This document shows, in pieces, positions 26,449 to 33,115 of a stretch of 33,115 bases of DNA. This DNA is from Methanobacteriota archaeon. GTDB taxonomy: Archaea > Thermoplasmatota > Thermoplasmata > UBA10834. The stretch spans positions 687,321 to 720,435 of the forward strand of contig CP070736.1 in NCBI GenBank assembly GCA_020347645.1, given 5' to 3'. The notes beneath the pieces are model-generated. The model was not told the DNA's origin. It was given only the letters and a program-made list of their open reading frames with translations, and did not search any database. How positions within the stretch are numbered: the stretch's first letter is position 1; every line of letters begins with the position of its first letter. The translations under genes and the position numbers were made by a program.

Positions 26449-26546
26449 CAAACCACCTCACTCCCGGGCATGTGCAGCCACGGGAGAGGGACGAATGGTG
26501 TTATGGGGTGTATTGGTATTCCCGAACACTTGGGGCATCTATCATT

Positions 26547-26570
26547 CCCTATGGCCTATTCTCTCAGAGG
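26547..26570 (-). repeat. Intergenic repeat, copy A
   Basis: The plus strand reads CCCTATGGCCTATTCTCT followed by CAGAGG. It matches the core shared by copies B-F (CCCTATGGCC plus a T-rich flank ending in TCTC). It lies about 100 bases upstream of the FAS1 start and about 25 bases after its TATA box, so it would fall at the very 5' end of that transcript. It lacks the CCGC upstream of the core found in the better copies. Confidence 0.6.
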
Positions 26571-26594
26571 TTCTGTTTGAACATAAATACATCA

Positions 26595-26603
26595 GTATAA
26601 ATC
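26595..26603 (-). promoter_or_regulatory. TATA box of the FAS1 gene
   Basis: GATTTATAC on the minus strand is a good archaeal TATA match. Transcription would start about 25 bases downstream, near 26570, giving a leader of about 120 bases that begins with repeat copy A. Confidence 0.5.
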
Positions 26604-26716
26604 AAAATACGCTAGGAGCGGGATATTGATCCTGTGTCTATCGGTTTCTAAAGGATAAAGCTTGAAGGTTCAGGATCGAACCCTTTGTCGGCGGAAAATG
26701 ACCAGTTCAGAGCTGT

Positions 26717-27271
26717 TTAAAGCGTATGCTCTATCAGGATTCTTATCCCTATCAGAATGAGAATTAGGCCACCAATAACTCTAACCTTTCTGCCAAAGAT
26801 CGCCCCCATCTTCGAGCCGAATGTGAAACCCGAGTAGGATAGAACAAGGGTAACCACCCCGATGACTAGAACTGGAACCAAGATGGAAATTTCCAGAAAT
26901 GCAAAGCTGAGACCGACCATCAAGGCATCTATGCTGGTCGCGAGGGCAAGAACAAGTGCTACGGATAATGTGACGGCTGTCTCTTTTGCGTCTTCGCTCT
27001 TTGTCGAATCATAAATCATCTTCGCCCCTATGAAGCTAAGCAATCCAAATGCGACCCAATGATCGACTTCCATGATTGTATCTCTAAGGCCCAAACCTGC
27101 AAACCAGCCGATCACCGGCATAAGTGCCTGGAACCCTCCGAAAAGGGATGCGAGAAAAAATGCCGATCTTCTTCTGTTTCTCTCTACCGATATCCCCTTG
27201 GCGATCGACACGGCGAAAGCGTCCATAGCTAAGCCAATCGCAATCAGAATTACCGTGACGAAATCCATCAT
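26717..27271 (-). CDS. mntP: Manganese efflux protein MntP
   Basis: A 184-residue, six-helix protein of the MntP (formerly DUF204) family, which exports Mn2+. The two inverted halves carry the key intramembrane aspartates: Asp17 in GLAMDAFAVSIAKG and Asp115 in ATSIDALMVGLSFAF. A third acidic site is IMEVD (66-70) before helix 3. ATG 27271 is followed at once by a second ATG, and GGTG lies just upstream; either could be used. The stop is TAA. No manganese riboswitch is recognisable in the leader. It is divergent from the second C11 peptidase. Confidence 0.93.
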   Translation of the reverse strand: MMDFVTVILIAIGLAMDAFAVSIAKGISVERNRRRSAFFLASLFGGFQALMPVIGWFAGLGLRDTIMEVDHWVAFGLLSFIGAKMIYDSTKSEDAKETAVTLSVALVLALATSIDALMVGLSFAFLEISILVPVLVIGVVTLVLSYSGFTFGSKMGAIFGRKVRVIGGLILILIGIRILIEHTL

Positions 27272-27474
27272 TACACCGTCAGATTAAATCAGACCTGGGG
27301 ATGTGTTCTTTCCATGGCTTTCTCTCCTCAGCGGCGAACAGTCACATACGAGGCGTGAATGCCTCAGGATACTATCACTGGATTTAACGACTTCGGGAAT
27401 ACTCAACATGATCGACATCACGCCGATCTCGACATGGCCAGCAACAACATATGAATATATCTATCACAATTAAA

Positions 27475-27558
27475 ATGTGCGAGGACCCTGGCATTTGCCA
27501 CATCGACTGGCACAGATTGCGCATAATTGGACTTCCTGAAAACAAAACCGCCTTATAA
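27475..27558 (+). CDS. Possible 27-residue small protein
   Basis: ATG TGC GAG GAC CCT GGC ... TAA encodes MCEDPGICHIDWHRLRII and nine more residues. A TATA-like GAATATATC lies about 22 bases before the ATG, as expected for a leaderless archaeal gene. The first seven codons and the A/T-rich sequence before them recur, diverged, at 28966 (MYEGPGI). The Cys-x5-Cys-His pattern is suggestive only. It may instead be an untranslated leader of the peptidase gene. Confidence 0.3.
   Translation: MCEDPGICHIDWHRLRIIGLPENKTAL
27551..27558 (+). promoter_or_regulatory. TATA box of the second C11 peptidase gene
   Basis: CCTTATAA precedes the peptidase frame. Transcription from about 27580 would give a leader of about 55 bases containing the GGGGGGAT ribosome-site-like stretch at 27607-27614. 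Confidence 0.4.
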
Positions 27559-27636
27559 CATGGCGTCGTTTCAGTTCAGCCAGTAGCTCGCTGTAGCGTT
27601 GGAGACGGGGGGATATGAATCATAGCGAATCGGACG

Positions 27637-28812
27637 TTGAGTTCTCTTCTGGCGATAACCGTCGTGTGTCTTCTGGTCGCTTCGGGTGTATCATCAGGAA
27701 AGCAGAATGGCAAGCCTTCTGATGAGACTGCGTGGACTGTCGCAATATACGTCTGTGCTGACAATGACCTTGAACCCTACTGGGATGACGGAAGTCTTGC
27801 GATGCTCCTGAACATACCGCAAAGCGAACGCGTCGAGTTTGTCGCATATGTGGACCGCCCGGGCACCGGAGGGACGGAAATAGTCAAGATATCAGGCGGC
27901 GCTGTGGAAGTCGTCGACGACACTATTGAAGAAAAGAACTTCGGAGATGGGGCTACCTTCCAGTGGTTTCTGGAAGACGTCAGCGTCAGATATAACGCGG
28001 AGAATCTAGCGGTGATTGCATGGGACCATGGAGGGGCTTGGAGGGGATTCTGCCTCGATTCCACCAGCGGCGACCAGATAAGGCCTGTCGAGATGCGCGA
28101 GGCCATACTGGGCGCCGGCGTAGCCATCGACATCCTTGCCTTTGATGCGTGCATGTGTGCGTGCATCGAGACAGCCTATGAGGCAGCAGCTTCGGAATTG
28201 GTGGATCTGATGGTCGCATCGGAAGAGTTGGTTGCCATGGATGGATTTCCATACGACTTGATGTTCACACCATTGGCTCTGGACCCGAAGAAGACCGCAG
28301 TCGATGTGGCCTTCGATATGGTCGACGGATGGGCGGATTACTACTGCGAGCTCGGATCAGGATGGTACGCAACCCTCGGTGTGATTGATGTTAGCGTGAT
28401 CCGCGATGGGTTCGAGATACTCAACACTTGGACCGAGGAGATGCTGGAAGGACTTACCGAGCACCTGATGGACTACAGTTACGCGCTCAGGCACAGCAGC
28501 AGCGTCTCGTGCGTGGGCCATTACCAGGTTGACATTATCGATCTCAACAGGTACCTGTTAGCTTCCGAGGCAATCGCCGGAGATACAGGGCTGGCAGATG
28601 CAATCGGGCAGGTCATGGAATGCGTGGACCAAGCAGTTCTGTATGTCTACAATCCTGACAGGAAGGTCGACAGCACTGGGCTCTCGATATTCTGGGGAAT
28701 CAACGATGTATGGGAGAACAGCATGGAGAAGTATACCGTGTTTGCCTCGTTCGGGGTCGATACATCCTGGTCAGAATTCGTGGACCAGTACAATCTGTTG
28801 ATTCCATCGTGA
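27637..28812 (+). CDS. Secreted clostripain-family (C11) cysteine peptidase, second copy
   Basis: A 391-residue C11 peptidase. The dyad is His131 in AWDHGGAW and Cys172 in AFDACMCACIE. The domain opens with WTVAIYVCADNDLEPYW (33-49). It resembles the copy at 16052 in layout but is shorter and lacks that copy's Cys cluster. A hydrophobic signal sequence (LLAITVVCLLVASGVSSG) is clear, but the start is not. TTG 27637 has no Shine-Dalgarno and leaves no positive charge before the core. The well-placed ATG 27615, behind GGGGGG, is one base out of frame. In-frame upstream codons include Arg (NRTLSS) but no normal start before a stop at 27616. An unusual start or an indel is possible. Confidence 0.87.
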   Translation: MSSLLAITVVCLLVASGVSSGKQNGKPSDETAWTVAIYVCADNDLEPYWDDGSLAMLLNIPQSERVEFVAYVDRPGTGGTEIVKISGGAVEVVDDTIEEKNFGDGATFQWFLEDVSVRYNAENLAVIAWDHGGAWRGFCLDSTSGDQIRPVEMREAILGAGVAIDILAFDACMCACIETAYEAAASELVDLMVASEELVAMDGFPYDLMFTPLALDPKKTAVDVAFDMVDGWADYYCELGSGWYATLGVIDVSVIRDGFEILNTWTEEMLEGLTEHLMDYSYALRHSSSVSCVGHYQVDIIDLNRYLLASEAIAGDTGLADAIGQVMECVDQAVLYVYNPDRKVDSTGLSIFWGINDVWENSMEKYTVFASFGVDTSWSEFVDQYNLLIPS

Positions 28813-29132
28813 TGCATTGCGAGGCAATCTCAGGAGAAGGTCTCGCTGCGAACATCCATTGACGGAGTTCGGACTAGTCCTCAATGACCGCGGGGGCTCG
28901 CTTCGCCCTTGTAGCCCTTTCTCGGGGGTTGCTGTTCGCACATAGATTCATGTTTCATAATTAAGATGTACGAGGGCCCGGGTATTCACCTGTAAACTAC
29001 CGGTGCTCAAAGGTAGGAGCTTGGAAGATTCAAAGTGGAATTCTTTGATGGTAGAGAATGGATCGGTTCAGAAGAGGTGAACATAAAGGGGATTATGCTC
29101 CCCCTATGGCCTTTCCTCTGGAGGGCTCGACC
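28813..29132. other. Gene-free 320 bases between C11 peptidase and flavodoxin gene
   Basis: The region lies between convergent genes. It contains the perfect palindrome GGACTAGTCC (28871-28880). It also contains a nine-codon frame at 28966-28995 (MYEGPGIHL, TAA) that matches the start of the small ORF at 27475, and repeat copy B at its right end. I see no other ORF with a ribosome site. Confidence 0.4.
29101..29125 (-). repeat. Intergenic repeat, copy B
   Basis: The plus strand CCCCTATGGCCTTTCCTCTG, then GAGGG, lies about eight bases after the stop of the flavodoxin-like gene on the minus strand. The core agrees with copies C and D, with one change in the T-rich part. It lacks the TTCCG part on its other side. 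Confidence 0.65.
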
Positions 29133-29615
29133 TCAGCCTTCCTGCGAAATTCGGGCAGCGAAATCCTCCACCTTCTTCTGCCAGCCCTCCTCCAAAGGTC
29201 CCTTCATGCTTGTCACGAGGACGTGCCCCTCCGCGACCTTCTCCAGGCCTTTTGCCTTGAGCATCTCGTTCATAATCGGTCTCACGCGCTGCCATTTTGT
29301 GCGTTCTTCCTCCGTCGGCATCTTGCCGGTCTTCTTGTCAGGCTGGGGAGCTGATTCGGTAGTCAGGATGGCATATTTGGCGCCCGGGGCGATGGCTATC
29401 TTCTTCAGGAATCGACGTACGCTGCCGATGGGTTTGCCAATCCGGCCGGGCGAGCTGAAGACATACAGGTCTGCAGGGGCCAGTTCCTTCGGTCGCACGT
29501 TTCTTATGTGGTGAACGTTCACAGCGACTCCTTTCACGGTCATCTGTTTCTTGAATTCCTCTGCAACTCTAGCTCCGTTGCCGAACTTCGAAGCATGGAA
29601 GTATTCGATCTTCAT
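29133..29615 (-). CDS. Flavodoxin-domain protein
   Basis: A 160-residue flavodoxin-like protein. The first strand and phosphate loop read YFHASKFGNGARVAEEF (5-21), where SKFGNG stands for the usual SxTGNT FMN-phosphate loop. The second loop is VFSSPGRIGKPIGSVRRF (52-69). A strand AILTTES (82-88) and helices at the end complete an alpha/beta fold. An electron-transfer or NADH:quinone-oxidoreductase-like role is plausible but not proven. The phosphate loop lacks the canonical Thr, so FMN binding is likely rather than certain. ATG 29615 lies about 20 bases after repeat copy C, and copy B follows the stop. Confidence 0.75.
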   Translation of the reverse strand: MKIEYFHASKFGNGARVAEEFKKQMTVKGVAVNVHHIRNVRPKELAPADLYVFSSPGRIGKPIGSVRRFLKKIAIAPGAKYAILTTESAPQPDKKTGKMPTEEERTKWQRVRPIMNEMLKAKGLEKVAEGHVLVTSMKGPLEEGWQKKVEDFAARISQEG

Positions 29616-29634
29616 ACCAACCGGATTGGATTTC

Positions 29635-29655
29635 GCCCCTATGGCCTTTTCTCAC
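29635..29655 (-). repeat. Intergenic repeat, copy C
   Basis: The plus strand is CGCCCCTATGGCCTTTTCTCA, identical to copy D over CGCCCCTATGGCCTTTTCTC. On the minus strand it lies about 20 bases before the flavodoxin-like start and directly behind the hairpin/T-run at 29657-29684. Confidence 0.75.
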
Positions 29656-29656
29656 G

Positions 29657-29684
29657 AAAAATGGACATGCGGCCGCCGGGCCGC
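29657..29684 (-). terminator. GC hairpin plus T5, intrinsic-terminator-like
   Basis: On the minus strand GCGGCC/GGCCGC (arms 29679-29684 and 29669-29674, loop of four) is followed seven bases later by TTTTT (29661-29657). It stands 130 bases after the stop of the 93-residue gene and would end that transcript before the flavodoxin gene. Confidence 0.55.
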
Positions 29685-29815
29685 GCATCCTGCTCGAGCC
29701 AGTTACCCTTTTCTGATTTCAGTCAAACGGGGAATTGGATGCAGACCTAGCGCTCTTCATTCTTCTGTGCAGTGGAGTCTTGGATCTGTATCCACTTCCT
29801 GCAGGCGCCAGGAGG

Positions 29816-30097
29816 CTAATCACTCATTATCTTGATCGTGGTCTTGAAACCTGCCTTGCCGCCAGGGAGAAAGCCCGTGCTAGTCTCCAAAGTACCCTCT
29901 ACCGTGACCTCCCATTTCGCAATTCCCGAGTCCTTAATTCGCTTGCGGAGAGCCTTCAAGAACTCATCAAGCTTCTTGATTTTGTCCCCCATCCCCTTGC
30001 CATCTGCGAATACCTGCATCTCTTCTGCTGACATTCCTGTCGGGGTGAAGTAGAAATCCTCGACTACATCTCTCAATTCGGTACCACCTTCGGTCAT
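29816..30097 (-). CDS. Hypothetical 93-residue protein
   Basis: A short soluble protein, unrecognised. The N-terminal half is acidic and helical (LRDVVEDFYF, SAEEMQVFADG), followed by a basic helix (KIKKLDEFLKALRKRIKD). The C-terminal part looks like paired strands (WEVTVEGTLETST, AGFKTTIKIMSD). ATG 30097 follows AGGGGAATGAC. The sequence from the CATAGGGG of repeat copy D to this start codon (47 bases) matches the leader of the zinc-ribbon gene at 30173-30460 at about three quarters of positions. The stop is TAG. There is no signal peptide and no helix in the membrane. Confidence 0.6.
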   Translation of the reverse strand: MTEGGTELRDVVEDFYFTPTGMSAEEMQVFADGKGMGDKIKKLDEFLKALRKRIKDSGIAKWEVTVEGTLETSTGFLPGGKAGFKTTIKIMSD

Positions 30098-30128
30098 GTC
30101 ATTCCCCTCGACCGTCTTGCGTATGCCA

Positions 30129-30155
30129 TTCCGCCCCTATGGCCTTTTCTCTGAG
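30129..30155 (-). repeat. Intergenic repeat, copy D
   Basis: The plus strand is TTCCGCCCCTATGGCCTTTT followed by CTCTGAG, the best full copy. It lies 18 bases after the stop of the zinc-ribbon gene and upstream of the 93-residue gene. Seventeen bases (CCATTCCGCCCCTATGG) are identical to copy F. Confidence 0.8.
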
Positions 30156-30172
30156 ATTGCCAGCCTGCTAAG

Positions 30173-30460
30173 CTAGCGGTGTGATAGCATGTAGAGCGTG
30201 AATGCCCAGCCGATCCCACCTATGCAGAGGAATAGAAGTGCGAACCCCGACATATCCCACAGGAGACTGACAATAAACAGGGCTGAGCCAAGAATGGCCA
30301 TGGAAATGAATCTCAGCAACCAGTCCAGCTTCATCAGAGAGTGTAATCTGGGTCTTTCAAGTTGAACACTCTCTGCTAGCTCACCGCTCATGTTCGCTCC
30401 GCAGTTGTCGCAGAACCTAGCTATCTCCCGGTTTTTCGCTCCACATTTCAAGCATTCCAC
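30173..30460 (-). CDS. Zinc-ribbon protein with two membrane helices, second copy
   Basis: A 95-residue protein with a zinc ribbon (Cys3, Cys6, Cys17, Cys20: CLKCGAKNREIARFCDNCG) and a linker rich in Glu and Arg. Two membrane helices follow (about 50-66 and 71-91). It resembles the protein at 21806-22171 in design, but the linker and helices differ. The start is GTG 30460, with AGGGGA about seven bases upstream. The stop is TAG. It lies between repeat copies E and D. The role is unknown. Confidence 0.75.
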   Translation of the reverse strand: MECLKCGAKNREIARFCDNCGANMSGELAESVQLERPRLHSLMKLDWLLRFISMAILGSALFIVSLLWDMSGFALLFLCIGGIGWAFTLYMLSHR

Positions 30461-30491
30461 GCCATTCCCCTAGCCCATTCAGCGTATATCC

Positions 30492-30515
30492 TTCCGCCCC
30501 TATGACCTTTTTCCG
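30492..30515 (-). repeat. Intergenic repeat, copy E
   Basis: The plus strand is TTCCGCCCCTATGACCTTTT with TCCG following; one G-to-A change in the core distinguishes it from copy D. It lies about 32 bases before the zinc-ribbon start. A TATA-like TTATTTGC (minus strand, 30536-30543) is about 25 bases upstream of it. Confidence 0.75.
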
Positions 30516-30626
30516 ATTGAAGAGATTGAATCTCGCAAATAAGGCCAATTTCAAGATGCATTTTCAATCAGATGGCAAAGAGTTATGTGAACTCTCCAGC
30601 ATTGTACCGATGGAGGAATCGGCGAG

Positions 30627-31511
30627 TTGACTCTAACCAGAACTAGAGCCTATGGGCTTCTTATCTTTGCAGTAGTCCTATGGGCGGCGTCGGGAACCAT
30701 TACGACACTTGCGCTCGATGAAGGTGTGTCTGTAATTGAACTCACAACCTTCGCATACATTTTCGCTAGCGTCGTCTTTCTTCCAATTGTGGCTATATTC
30801 GACCGGCGATCTCTGAGGATAGACCGAAGGGACATTCCGACCTTCATAGCATTCAGCTTCGTTGCGGGTGCGATGGTGAGCCTCGCGTTCTTCGGAGCGA
30901 TTGACGAGACCACGGTGGCAATCGCAGTCATCTTGGAATTCGCATATCCGAGCATGATAATCGTTGCGTCCTTCTTCATATTCAAAGAGGGTTTGTCAAA
31001 GCAGAAGCTTTTAGCTCTGCCACTTACCTTTATAGGGTGCGTCCTAGTGGCAGGTTCTCCTGCCTTTGAAGGAGGAATACCAGCGAGCTGGCTTGCCATA
31101 GCTCTCGGCCTCTTGTCGGCGGTCGGGACAGCAGCCTATTTCGTATGGGGAAAGAAGCTTCAGGAAAAGTACTCCGCAAACACCGTAACGCTCTATCTGT
31201 TTGTGCTTGCGGCCATAATGCTCTTGATAGCCTCGAATCCATTGACCCTCTTTCAAAGCTCCTTCACTCCCAAAGCTTGGATTCTCATCTTCCTGCTCGG
31301 AGTGCTTCCTGGAATAGTAGGGTTTCTGGCATCATTCGTCGCTCTGCGATATATAGAGGCAGGGAAAGCCGGAATTATCTCCAGCATGGAACCGATGTTG
31401 GCAATCGGAATCGCTTTTATGATTCTGTCGGAAGGAGTTACCGGCCTCCAGGTGATAGGGGCTGCCGTTATTGTAGGCGGCGTCATGCTTCTGAGCCTGT
31501 GCGAGAGCTGA
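30627..31511 (+). CDS. EamA/DMT-family transporter, second copy
   Basis: A 294-residue, ten-helix transporter with two EamA repeats. The first repeat contains FAYIFASVVFLPIVA and EFAYPSMIIVASFFIFKEGL. The second contains SSMEPMLAIGIAFMILSEGV, the usual 'EP' motif after helix 9. It differs strongly from the transporter at 20771-21652, which has AYP instead of EP, so the two belong to different DMT branches. The start is TTG 30627 with GGAGG ten bases upstream (30612-30616). It is the only plus-strand gene within the repeat-bounded stretch and lies between copies E and F. The substrate is unknown. Confidence 0.88.
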   Translation: MTLTRTRAYGLLIFAVVLWAASGTITTLALDEGVSVIELTTFAYIFASVVFLPIVAIFDRRSLRIDRRDIPTFIAFSFVAGAMVSLAFFGAIDETTVAIAVILEFAYPSMIIVASFFIFKEGLSKQKLLALPLTFIGCVLVAGSPAFEGGIPASWLAIALGLLSAVGTAAYFVWGKKLQEKYSANTVTLYLFVLAAIMLLIASNPLTLFQSSFTPKAWILIFLLGVLPGIVGFLASFVALRYIEAGKAGIISSMEPMLAIGIAFMILSEGVTGLQVIGAAVIVGGVMLLSLCES

Positions 31512-31536
31512 CTGTCGGTAAGGGTAGACTCTTCCA

Positions 31537-31560
31537 TTCCGCCCCTATGGGCTCTTCTCA
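31537..31560 (-). repeat. Intergenic repeat, copy F
   Basis: The plus strand is ATTCCGCCCCTATGGGCTCT followed by TCTC. It lies 25 bases after the EamA stop and five bases after the stop of the small ORF at 31565-31735. No minus-strand gene follows it closely, so it cannot serve there as a leader. Confidence 0.75.
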
Positions 31561-32468: not shown

Positions 32469-33115
32469 CTAGCGTTTCATACTGTCCTTTTTGATTGACT
32501 CGATCCGCGCTCGAACGTCCGAAGGTATCGGTTCCACCTGATGATCCTTCAGAATCTTCCTGATCTCGTCTCTGACATTCTCGACCAGAGTCTTTCCTCC
32601 GGCCTTCTTCCATGAGTCGTGCGAGAATGTCCGATCCATGATAGAGCTTATACGATGCTCGCTCTCGAAGAATTTCAGTGAGTGCTTCAGGCCCAAGAAT
32701 GATCCTCCATGCTTCGCGTTCTTTATCTCTTCCACAGCAAGAGTTTCATCGTCGACGCGAATGCCTCGCATGATCCTCTTGAGCATCCCAATAATCTCAT
32801 CGCATACCACGATAAGCTCCTGACTTCCGCTCTTCGCGGATTCGGTGAGACCGACGTCATGTATGAGGTTCTGGCCGCTCATAGCAGCGGTAGACAGGTT
32901 CATCGACGCCTCCACGAAGGCCTGAGCATCTAAGGTCTTTGAATCAGTACATCCTCCCGTGCCCCATATGGGCATCTCCAGGTGATGCGCCAATTGGGCT
33001 TGGGCGATGCCAAGCATCATGGTCTCTGGTGTGCCATATTGGCAGAGGGTAGTTCTCATGTTCATCGTCAGTGGCACGAAGCCGAACACAAACGGTGTTC
33101 CGGGCCGCGTGAACT
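32469..33115 (-). CDS. MttB-family methyltransferase, C-terminal part (truncated by window edge)
   Basis: The frame is open from the right window edge to TAG 32469, about 215 residues. It corresponds to the C-terminal half of MttB-type methyltransferases. Recognisable segments are TRPGTPFVFGFVPLTMNM at the edge, YGTPETMMLGIAQAQLAHH, WGTGGCTDSKTLDAQAFVEA, SGQNLIHDVGLTES, CDEIIGMLKRIMRGI and KHGGSFLGLKHSLKFFESE. An in-frame GTG at 33089 is not the start, since homology continues upstream of it. No in-frame TAG interrupts the visible part. Its direct partner is the corrinoid protein 13 bases downstream. It is only loosely similar to the copy at 8398-9822, so the two probably act on different substrates. 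The N-terminal half is outside the window. Confidence 0.93.
   Translation of the reverse strand, partial: FTRPGTPFVFGFVPLTMNMRTTLCQYGTPETMMLGIAQAQLAHHLEMPIWGTGGCTDSKTLDAQAFVEASMNLSTAAMSGQNLIHDVGLTESAKSGSQELIVVCDEIIGMLKRIMRGIRVDDETLAVEEIKNAKHGGSFLGLKHSLKFFESEHRISSIMDRTFSHDSWKKAGGKTLVENVRDEIRKILKDHQVEPIPSDVRARIESIKKDSMKR

Follow-up and report, generated by a model that had tools for sequence, protein, structure and literature searches.

The short repeats that divide a run of small genes in this archaeal DNA probably serve as recombination sites for mobile gene cassettes in one Thermoplasmata family. Integrons are the classical platform for the capture of ready-made gene cassettes. If the present reading is true, a second system would follow integron logic with other sites, which would give cassette capture more than one origin, and it would explain how uncultured sediment archaea gain and shuffle small membrane-protein genes. 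Some sediment archaea seem to exchange genes as pre-cut blocks, much like bacterial integrons, by means of a different tag, and the site described here offers a concrete sequence for tracing the enzyme. The window, which is the whole stretch of 33,115 nt analysed (G000:C1:687321-720435), belongs to a 1.42-Mb, 65%-complete archaeal MAG (G000); it contains no gaps and stops at the contig end at 33115, which is followed by a 100-N gap.

Core site and organization of the arrays

Alignment of 117 copies with 60-nt flanks yielded the consensus core TTCCGCCCCTATGGCCTTTTCTC, a site of about 24 nt with sharp edges, as the information was confined to about -2 to +22 with background on either side. Across the array regions of six genomes, 740 kb in all, a search with the profile derived from the copies found about 230 sites scoring at least 10, the cores being sampled from fetched regions rather than complete genomes, and the identical 740 kb after shuffling gave a single site at a score of at least 11. 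Inspection of the profile revealed no evident inverted arms or dyad in the core consensus, and core variants were too scarce to place the crossover point.

In the source genome the 17-mer occurs exactly 22 times, and 44 copies are counted when up to 3 mismatches are allowed, including a 17-copy array (C1:1067374-1078460) larger than that of the window; on the extent of the repeat, the sequence-only reading of about 5 kb was therefore correct inside the window only. Neighbouring cores less than 3 kb apart share the same orientation in 149 of 151 pairs, and 203 of 213 cores are intergenic. By the simple gene calls made for this analysis, 90 of 138 units hold exactly one gene, and the called unit genes read against the plus orientation of the core in 95 cases and along it in 45. 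The units have a median length of 578 bp, 56% of their proteins are shorter than 150 aa, and a strongly hydrophobic stretch occurs in 65% of unit proteins compared with 24% for genes lying over 3 kb away from any core, so that the arrays are enriched in small membrane proteins. All of the genomes are MAGs, with 100-N scaffold gaps in G000, G002 and G006; arrays are present also on gap-free contigs of the separately named assemblies G001, G004 and G005.

In many units the core lies 20-50 nt 5' of the start codon. Two leaders recur between core and start codon in cassettes with unrelated genes, one ending in CGACGGTCGAGGGGAATGGC-ATG (24 copies) and the other containing CCCTTAAGCC (20 copies), as exemplified at 30094-30151 and at loci L001, L012 and L015.

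The array in the window

The copies and units found in the window are as follows.

26543-26563, plus strand: degenerate core CATTCCCTATGGCCTATTCTC, 4 mismatches, profile score 11
28901-28923, plus strand: very degenerate core CTTCGCCCTTGTAGCCCTTTCTC, tentative, from a sequence reading; a core-associated repeat of about 150 nt follows at 28906-29059
29098-29118, plus strand: core CTCCCCCTATGGCCTTTCCTC, profile score 21, bounding the flavodoxin unit on its left
29119-29632, minus strand: candidate flavodoxin-like cassette, gene 29133-29615
29633-29653, plus strand: core TCGCCCCTATGGCCTTTTCTC, profile score 42
29654-30130, minus strand: candidate cassette of a 93-aa orphan, gene 29816-30097, flanked by two cores
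30131-30151, plus strand: core CCGCCCCTATGGCCTTTTCTC (consensus), exact match, profile score 44
30152-30493, minus strand: candidate cassette of a zinc-ribbon membrane protein (Zn_Ribbon_1), gene 30173-30460, flanked by two cores
30494-30514, plus strand: core CCGCCCCTATGACCTTTTTCC, 1 mismatch in the 18-mer, profile score 27
30515-31538, plus strand: candidate EamA transporter cassette, gene 30627-31511 (EamA, 1e-38)
31539-31559, plus strand: last core of the window array CCGCCCCTATGGGCTCTTCTC, profile score 33

The solid array spans 29098-31559 and comprises four one-gene units, namely flavodoxin-like, 93-aa orphan, zinc ribbon and EamA. Six copies had been proposed from the sequence, all intergenic and in one orientation, and both of these properties were confirmed for every window copy. 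Four copies (29631, 30129, 30492 and 31537) match the proposed 20-mer with 0-2 mismatches, with 0 expected in 100 shuffles, and the copy at 29098-29118, with 3 mismatches in 18 positions, is weaker than the other array copies yet real. The leftmost copy at 26543 stands at noise level by itself, since one such score arises in 740 kb of shuffled sequence; the stretch 26543-26560 is probably a degenerate core, because a repeat of about 150 nt that starts at good cores elsewhere also starts there. The proposed role of the copies as gene separators held for the four one-gene units and failed at both margins, where the mntP and C11 peptidase genes have no clean core boundaries and the small ORF and corrinoid operon lie beyond the last core. 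EamA had been singled out as the only inverted gene, and it is indeed the sole array gene reading along the plus core.

The flavodoxin-like gene matched Flavodoxin_5 only under the Pfam cut-off, and a Pfam search with the 93-aa orphan gave no match. The leader of the orphan cassette (30094-30130) recurs in unrelated cassettes, and relatives of the EamA cassette (about 71%) adjoin cores in the 779000 region of G000:C1 and in G002.

Recurrence of units and breaks of homology at the core

When every array region was compared between loci, 713 alignment ends resulted, of which 101 fell within 25 nt of a core; rotating the core positions 300 times gave a mean of 7.4 and a maximum of 18. Alignments with both ends at cores numbered 17, against a rotation mean of 0.12 and a maximum of 2. 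Reciprocal alignments were counted twice in the data and the control alike. Unit homology thus stops at the core far above chance, which supports the earlier suggestion of a cassette array or insertion hotspot.

Individual units recur with different neighbours. The flavodoxin unit of the window (29098-29632) is 98.4% identical to a G006 unit bounded by cores on both sides, and G000 and G006 also share a 234-bp unit at 96% and a 1.6-kb unit at 90% identity, each among different neighbours; one G002 unit is a fusion of two G006 units. Recent lateral transfer of the units shared by G000 and G006 is likely, because their identity is high while the xerA locus of the two genomes is only 70.7% identical. 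Some stretches longer than units were also transferred, for example the corrinoid operon beyond the right end of the window array, which is 95% identical in G006.

Turnover is also seen beside tRNA genes. A core lies 5-50 nt 3' of a tRNA gene in eight cases (Pro, Gly and Ala twice each, Arg and Val), always in the same relative orientation, and by our estimate roughly 0.5 would be expected by chance for the 32 tRNAs of the fetched regions. At the tRNA-Pro locus, G001 and G004 are 92.3% identical along the 6,469 bp that lead to the core, after which unrelated units follow. At tRNA-Ala (cgc), an array is present in G005, and the homology of G006 ends at the tRNA end with no core. The repeat is therefore not an ordinary dispersed one: the even dispersal amid conserved gene order that the sequence-only reading had named as the sign of such a repeat is absent, the copies form clustered arrays in one orientation, and orthologous anchors carry different genes beyond the core.

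Distribution of the core

Searches of the source genome and its relatives revealed cores throughout the genus and diverged versions in its sister genera of the same family. Exact cores occur in all seven genus genomes (the source and six sampled). The sister genus g3 has arrays with a core of its own, CCTCCCCTATGG(T/G)CTTTTCC, whose conserved flank is longer and whose neighbours share the same orientation in 23 cases and are opposite in 0; in G014 of this genus the flavodoxin unit is found at 80% identity adjoining a g3-type core. Sister genus g2 contains few and more degenerate copies. Among 400 genomes of the class, only single one-mismatch matches were detected outside the family, at about the frequency of a reversed-pattern control, and the core is essentially absent from the rest of class Thermoplasmata.

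Cores in a Thorarchaeota MAG (JAEOUG01; L177, L179) were set aside as probably misbinned, as the contigs resemble Thermoplasmata ones and carry Thermoplasmata-like genes, and single bacterial matches are probably due to chance. In the viral contigs searched, neither type of core occurred as an exact copy, and the flavodoxin cassette had no relative there.

Search for the recombinase

No recombinase consistently adjoining the arrays was found among tyrosine recombinases (PF00589), serine resolvases and IS110 proteins, none near other copies was convincing, and no gene family is conserved at the array starts. The only tyrosine recombinase common to nearly all genomes examined in the PF00589 search is a XerA-like protein of about 190-216 aa that consists of the catalytic domain only, with no N-terminal SAM-like domain (L065, L068-L074); it matches the archaeal XerA model at positions 94-263 only, under the cut-off, and is present in lineages without arrays too. 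Element-borne integrases and resolvases occur patchily. The responsible enzyme would most likely be a tyrosine recombinase.

Several other candidates were rejected. A G007 integrase gene beside a core, reminiscent of intI with attI, was discarded because its class-wide homologues have no adjacent core and the genus itself lacks it; integrase/resolvase pairs near cores were discarded because these genes end at tRNA genes or other sequence and not at cores. Neither serine resolvases nor IS110 recombinases are common to the array-bearing genomes.

Several genera of the family harbour mobile elements in which a tyrosine integrase gene comes after a serine resolvase gene (L044, L047, L051, L097), and some of these integrase genes end directly against the 3' end of a tRNA.

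Proposed mechanism and alternative explanations

In the proposed system, each unit would consist of one core and usually one small gene, with the order, in the majority gene direction, of GAGAAAAGGCCATAGGGGCGGAA, a short leader with a ribosome-binding site, the gene and the gene end. Units would enter and leave at the asymmetric site of about 24 nt with the crossover within the core, giving rise to direct-repeat arrays in one orientation, several of them anchored just 3' of tRNA genes. Such a process may be a conservative, site-specific recombination in which an enzyme provided in trans acts on circular units; the class-wide XerA-like protein and a tyrosine recombinase carried by a visiting element are candidates for this enzyme. 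Conservative exchange at the core fits, because there is one copy per junction, in the same orientation, with breaks on both sides, and from this pattern we infer excision and insertion of units. Counting against it, the sites of tyrosine recombinases usually have inverted arms, and an asymmetric core is unusual; neither a circular intermediate nor a vector came to light.

A different account holds that tRNA-linked integrative elements, each with its own integrase and this core, accreted and decayed serially through repeated integration at the same site, leaving units that are remains and not independently mobile. The tRNA anchors agree with it, as do the proximity to a core, at a distance of a few kb, of about half of the genus' non-XerA integrases or fragments and the G007 integrase gene that ends 22 nt ahead of a good core. 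It is nevertheless unlikely, given that integrase-free units of 0.2-1.6 kb recur intact in other contexts, that the G007 integrase is missing from the genus with its homologues elsewhere in the class lacking an adjacent core, and that integrase/resolvase pairs abut tRNA genes or other sequence instead of cores. Somewhat less probable again is a core acting as a regulatory or RNA element at many genes, whose neighbours were swapped by ordinary homologous recombination or together with imported DNA. The short distance to the start codon in many units and the two leader types common to unrelated genes speak for such a role, but about one third of the unit genes are reversed and have the core at their 5' side in reverse, and an Rfam search at the cores matched no family. 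This account fails to predict the 149:2 orientation bias across both gene directions, and predicts neither tRNA anchoring nor homology that ends at a 24-nt core.

In layout, the arrays match integrons. As in integron and CALIN arrays (PMC9668308), the units are in one orientation and mostly single-gene, with one site copy between units; units recur in other contexts, and clusters exist without an integrase. Integrons have also been described from nine phyla of archaeal MAGs (PMC9668308). Actual integrons of the CALIN type, that is, attC clusters without an integrase, are very improbable here and largely excluded. The site is asymmetric, about 24 nt long and free of palindrome. As anticipated from the sequence, the classical attC core is lacking: in a search for the R boxes (GTTRRRY / RYYYAAC), GTTRRRY lay within 10 nt of 0 of 183 cores, and the flanks of the same core (z 0.22) or the ends of one unit (z 0.61) were no more complementary than mispaired flanks. 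No IntI was recognised, the two recombinases scored on the integron-integrase model reaching 74 and 54 bits, far under the cut-off of 265, in MAGs that are incomplete; and the anchors stand beside tRNA genes, not as attI beside intI.

The sites of pdif modules alternate in orientation, unlike the nearly constant orientation of the core here (149/151). The Acinetobacter pdif/dif modules, small gene modules between sites of about 25-30 nt supposedly mobilised by Xer (PMC6449649, PMC12907356), resemble the present arrays in their small gene units bounded by short sites, and a host-encoded Xer is supposed to act in trans there. Two kinds of module, C and D, are distinguished there (PMC13141974). 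A dif site has two 11-bp inverted arms around a centre of about 6 bp, and the archaeal dif is a 28-bp inverted repeat (PMC2958812); the asymmetric core here has no such dyad of 11-bp arms. Tandem tRNA integrative elements of archaeal tyrosine recombinases (PMC8371274) share the tRNA anchor, a direct-repeat core and nearby integrases with these arrays, but the units here are integrase-free and about 0.2-1.6 kb, and the core lies outside the tRNA sequence and is found again at many sites away from tRNA genes.

Because the arrays work like integrons but lack the attC features tested and the site symmetry and orientation of dif modules, the system would be of the gene-cassette kind, as a new variant and possibly an independent one. 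With somewhat less than even confidence, it may be an archaeal cassette system unrelated to integrons and of independent origin, in which the core is short and asymmetric, the arrays are anchored at tRNA genes, each genus has core sequences co-evolving with their recombinase, and the enzyme is either a minimal XerA-like recombinase encoded by the host or an undescribed one. Literature searches returned no description of this cassette system, and Thermoplasmata are not mentioned in the main text of the archaeal integron survey (PMC9668308) or of the tyrosine recombinase review (PMC8371274).

Further observations around the window array

The non-coding repeat of about 150 nt (26547-26699 and 28906-29059) has 25 copies in the fetched regions, and it may be a gene-less cassette, because several copies begin exactly at a core. 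Clostripain-like C11 peptidases (27637-28812, L014, L060) recur near cores; they belong to a cluster with 36 members across the fetched regions, of which 23 lie within 1.5 kb of a core, and this cluster was linked loosely and may be mixed. On the minus strand at 32852-32951, a sub-threshold match (25.8 bits, cut-off 38) to PYLIS_3, the mttB pyrrolysine insertion element, sits in a methyltransferase gene adjoining the corrinoid protein gene.
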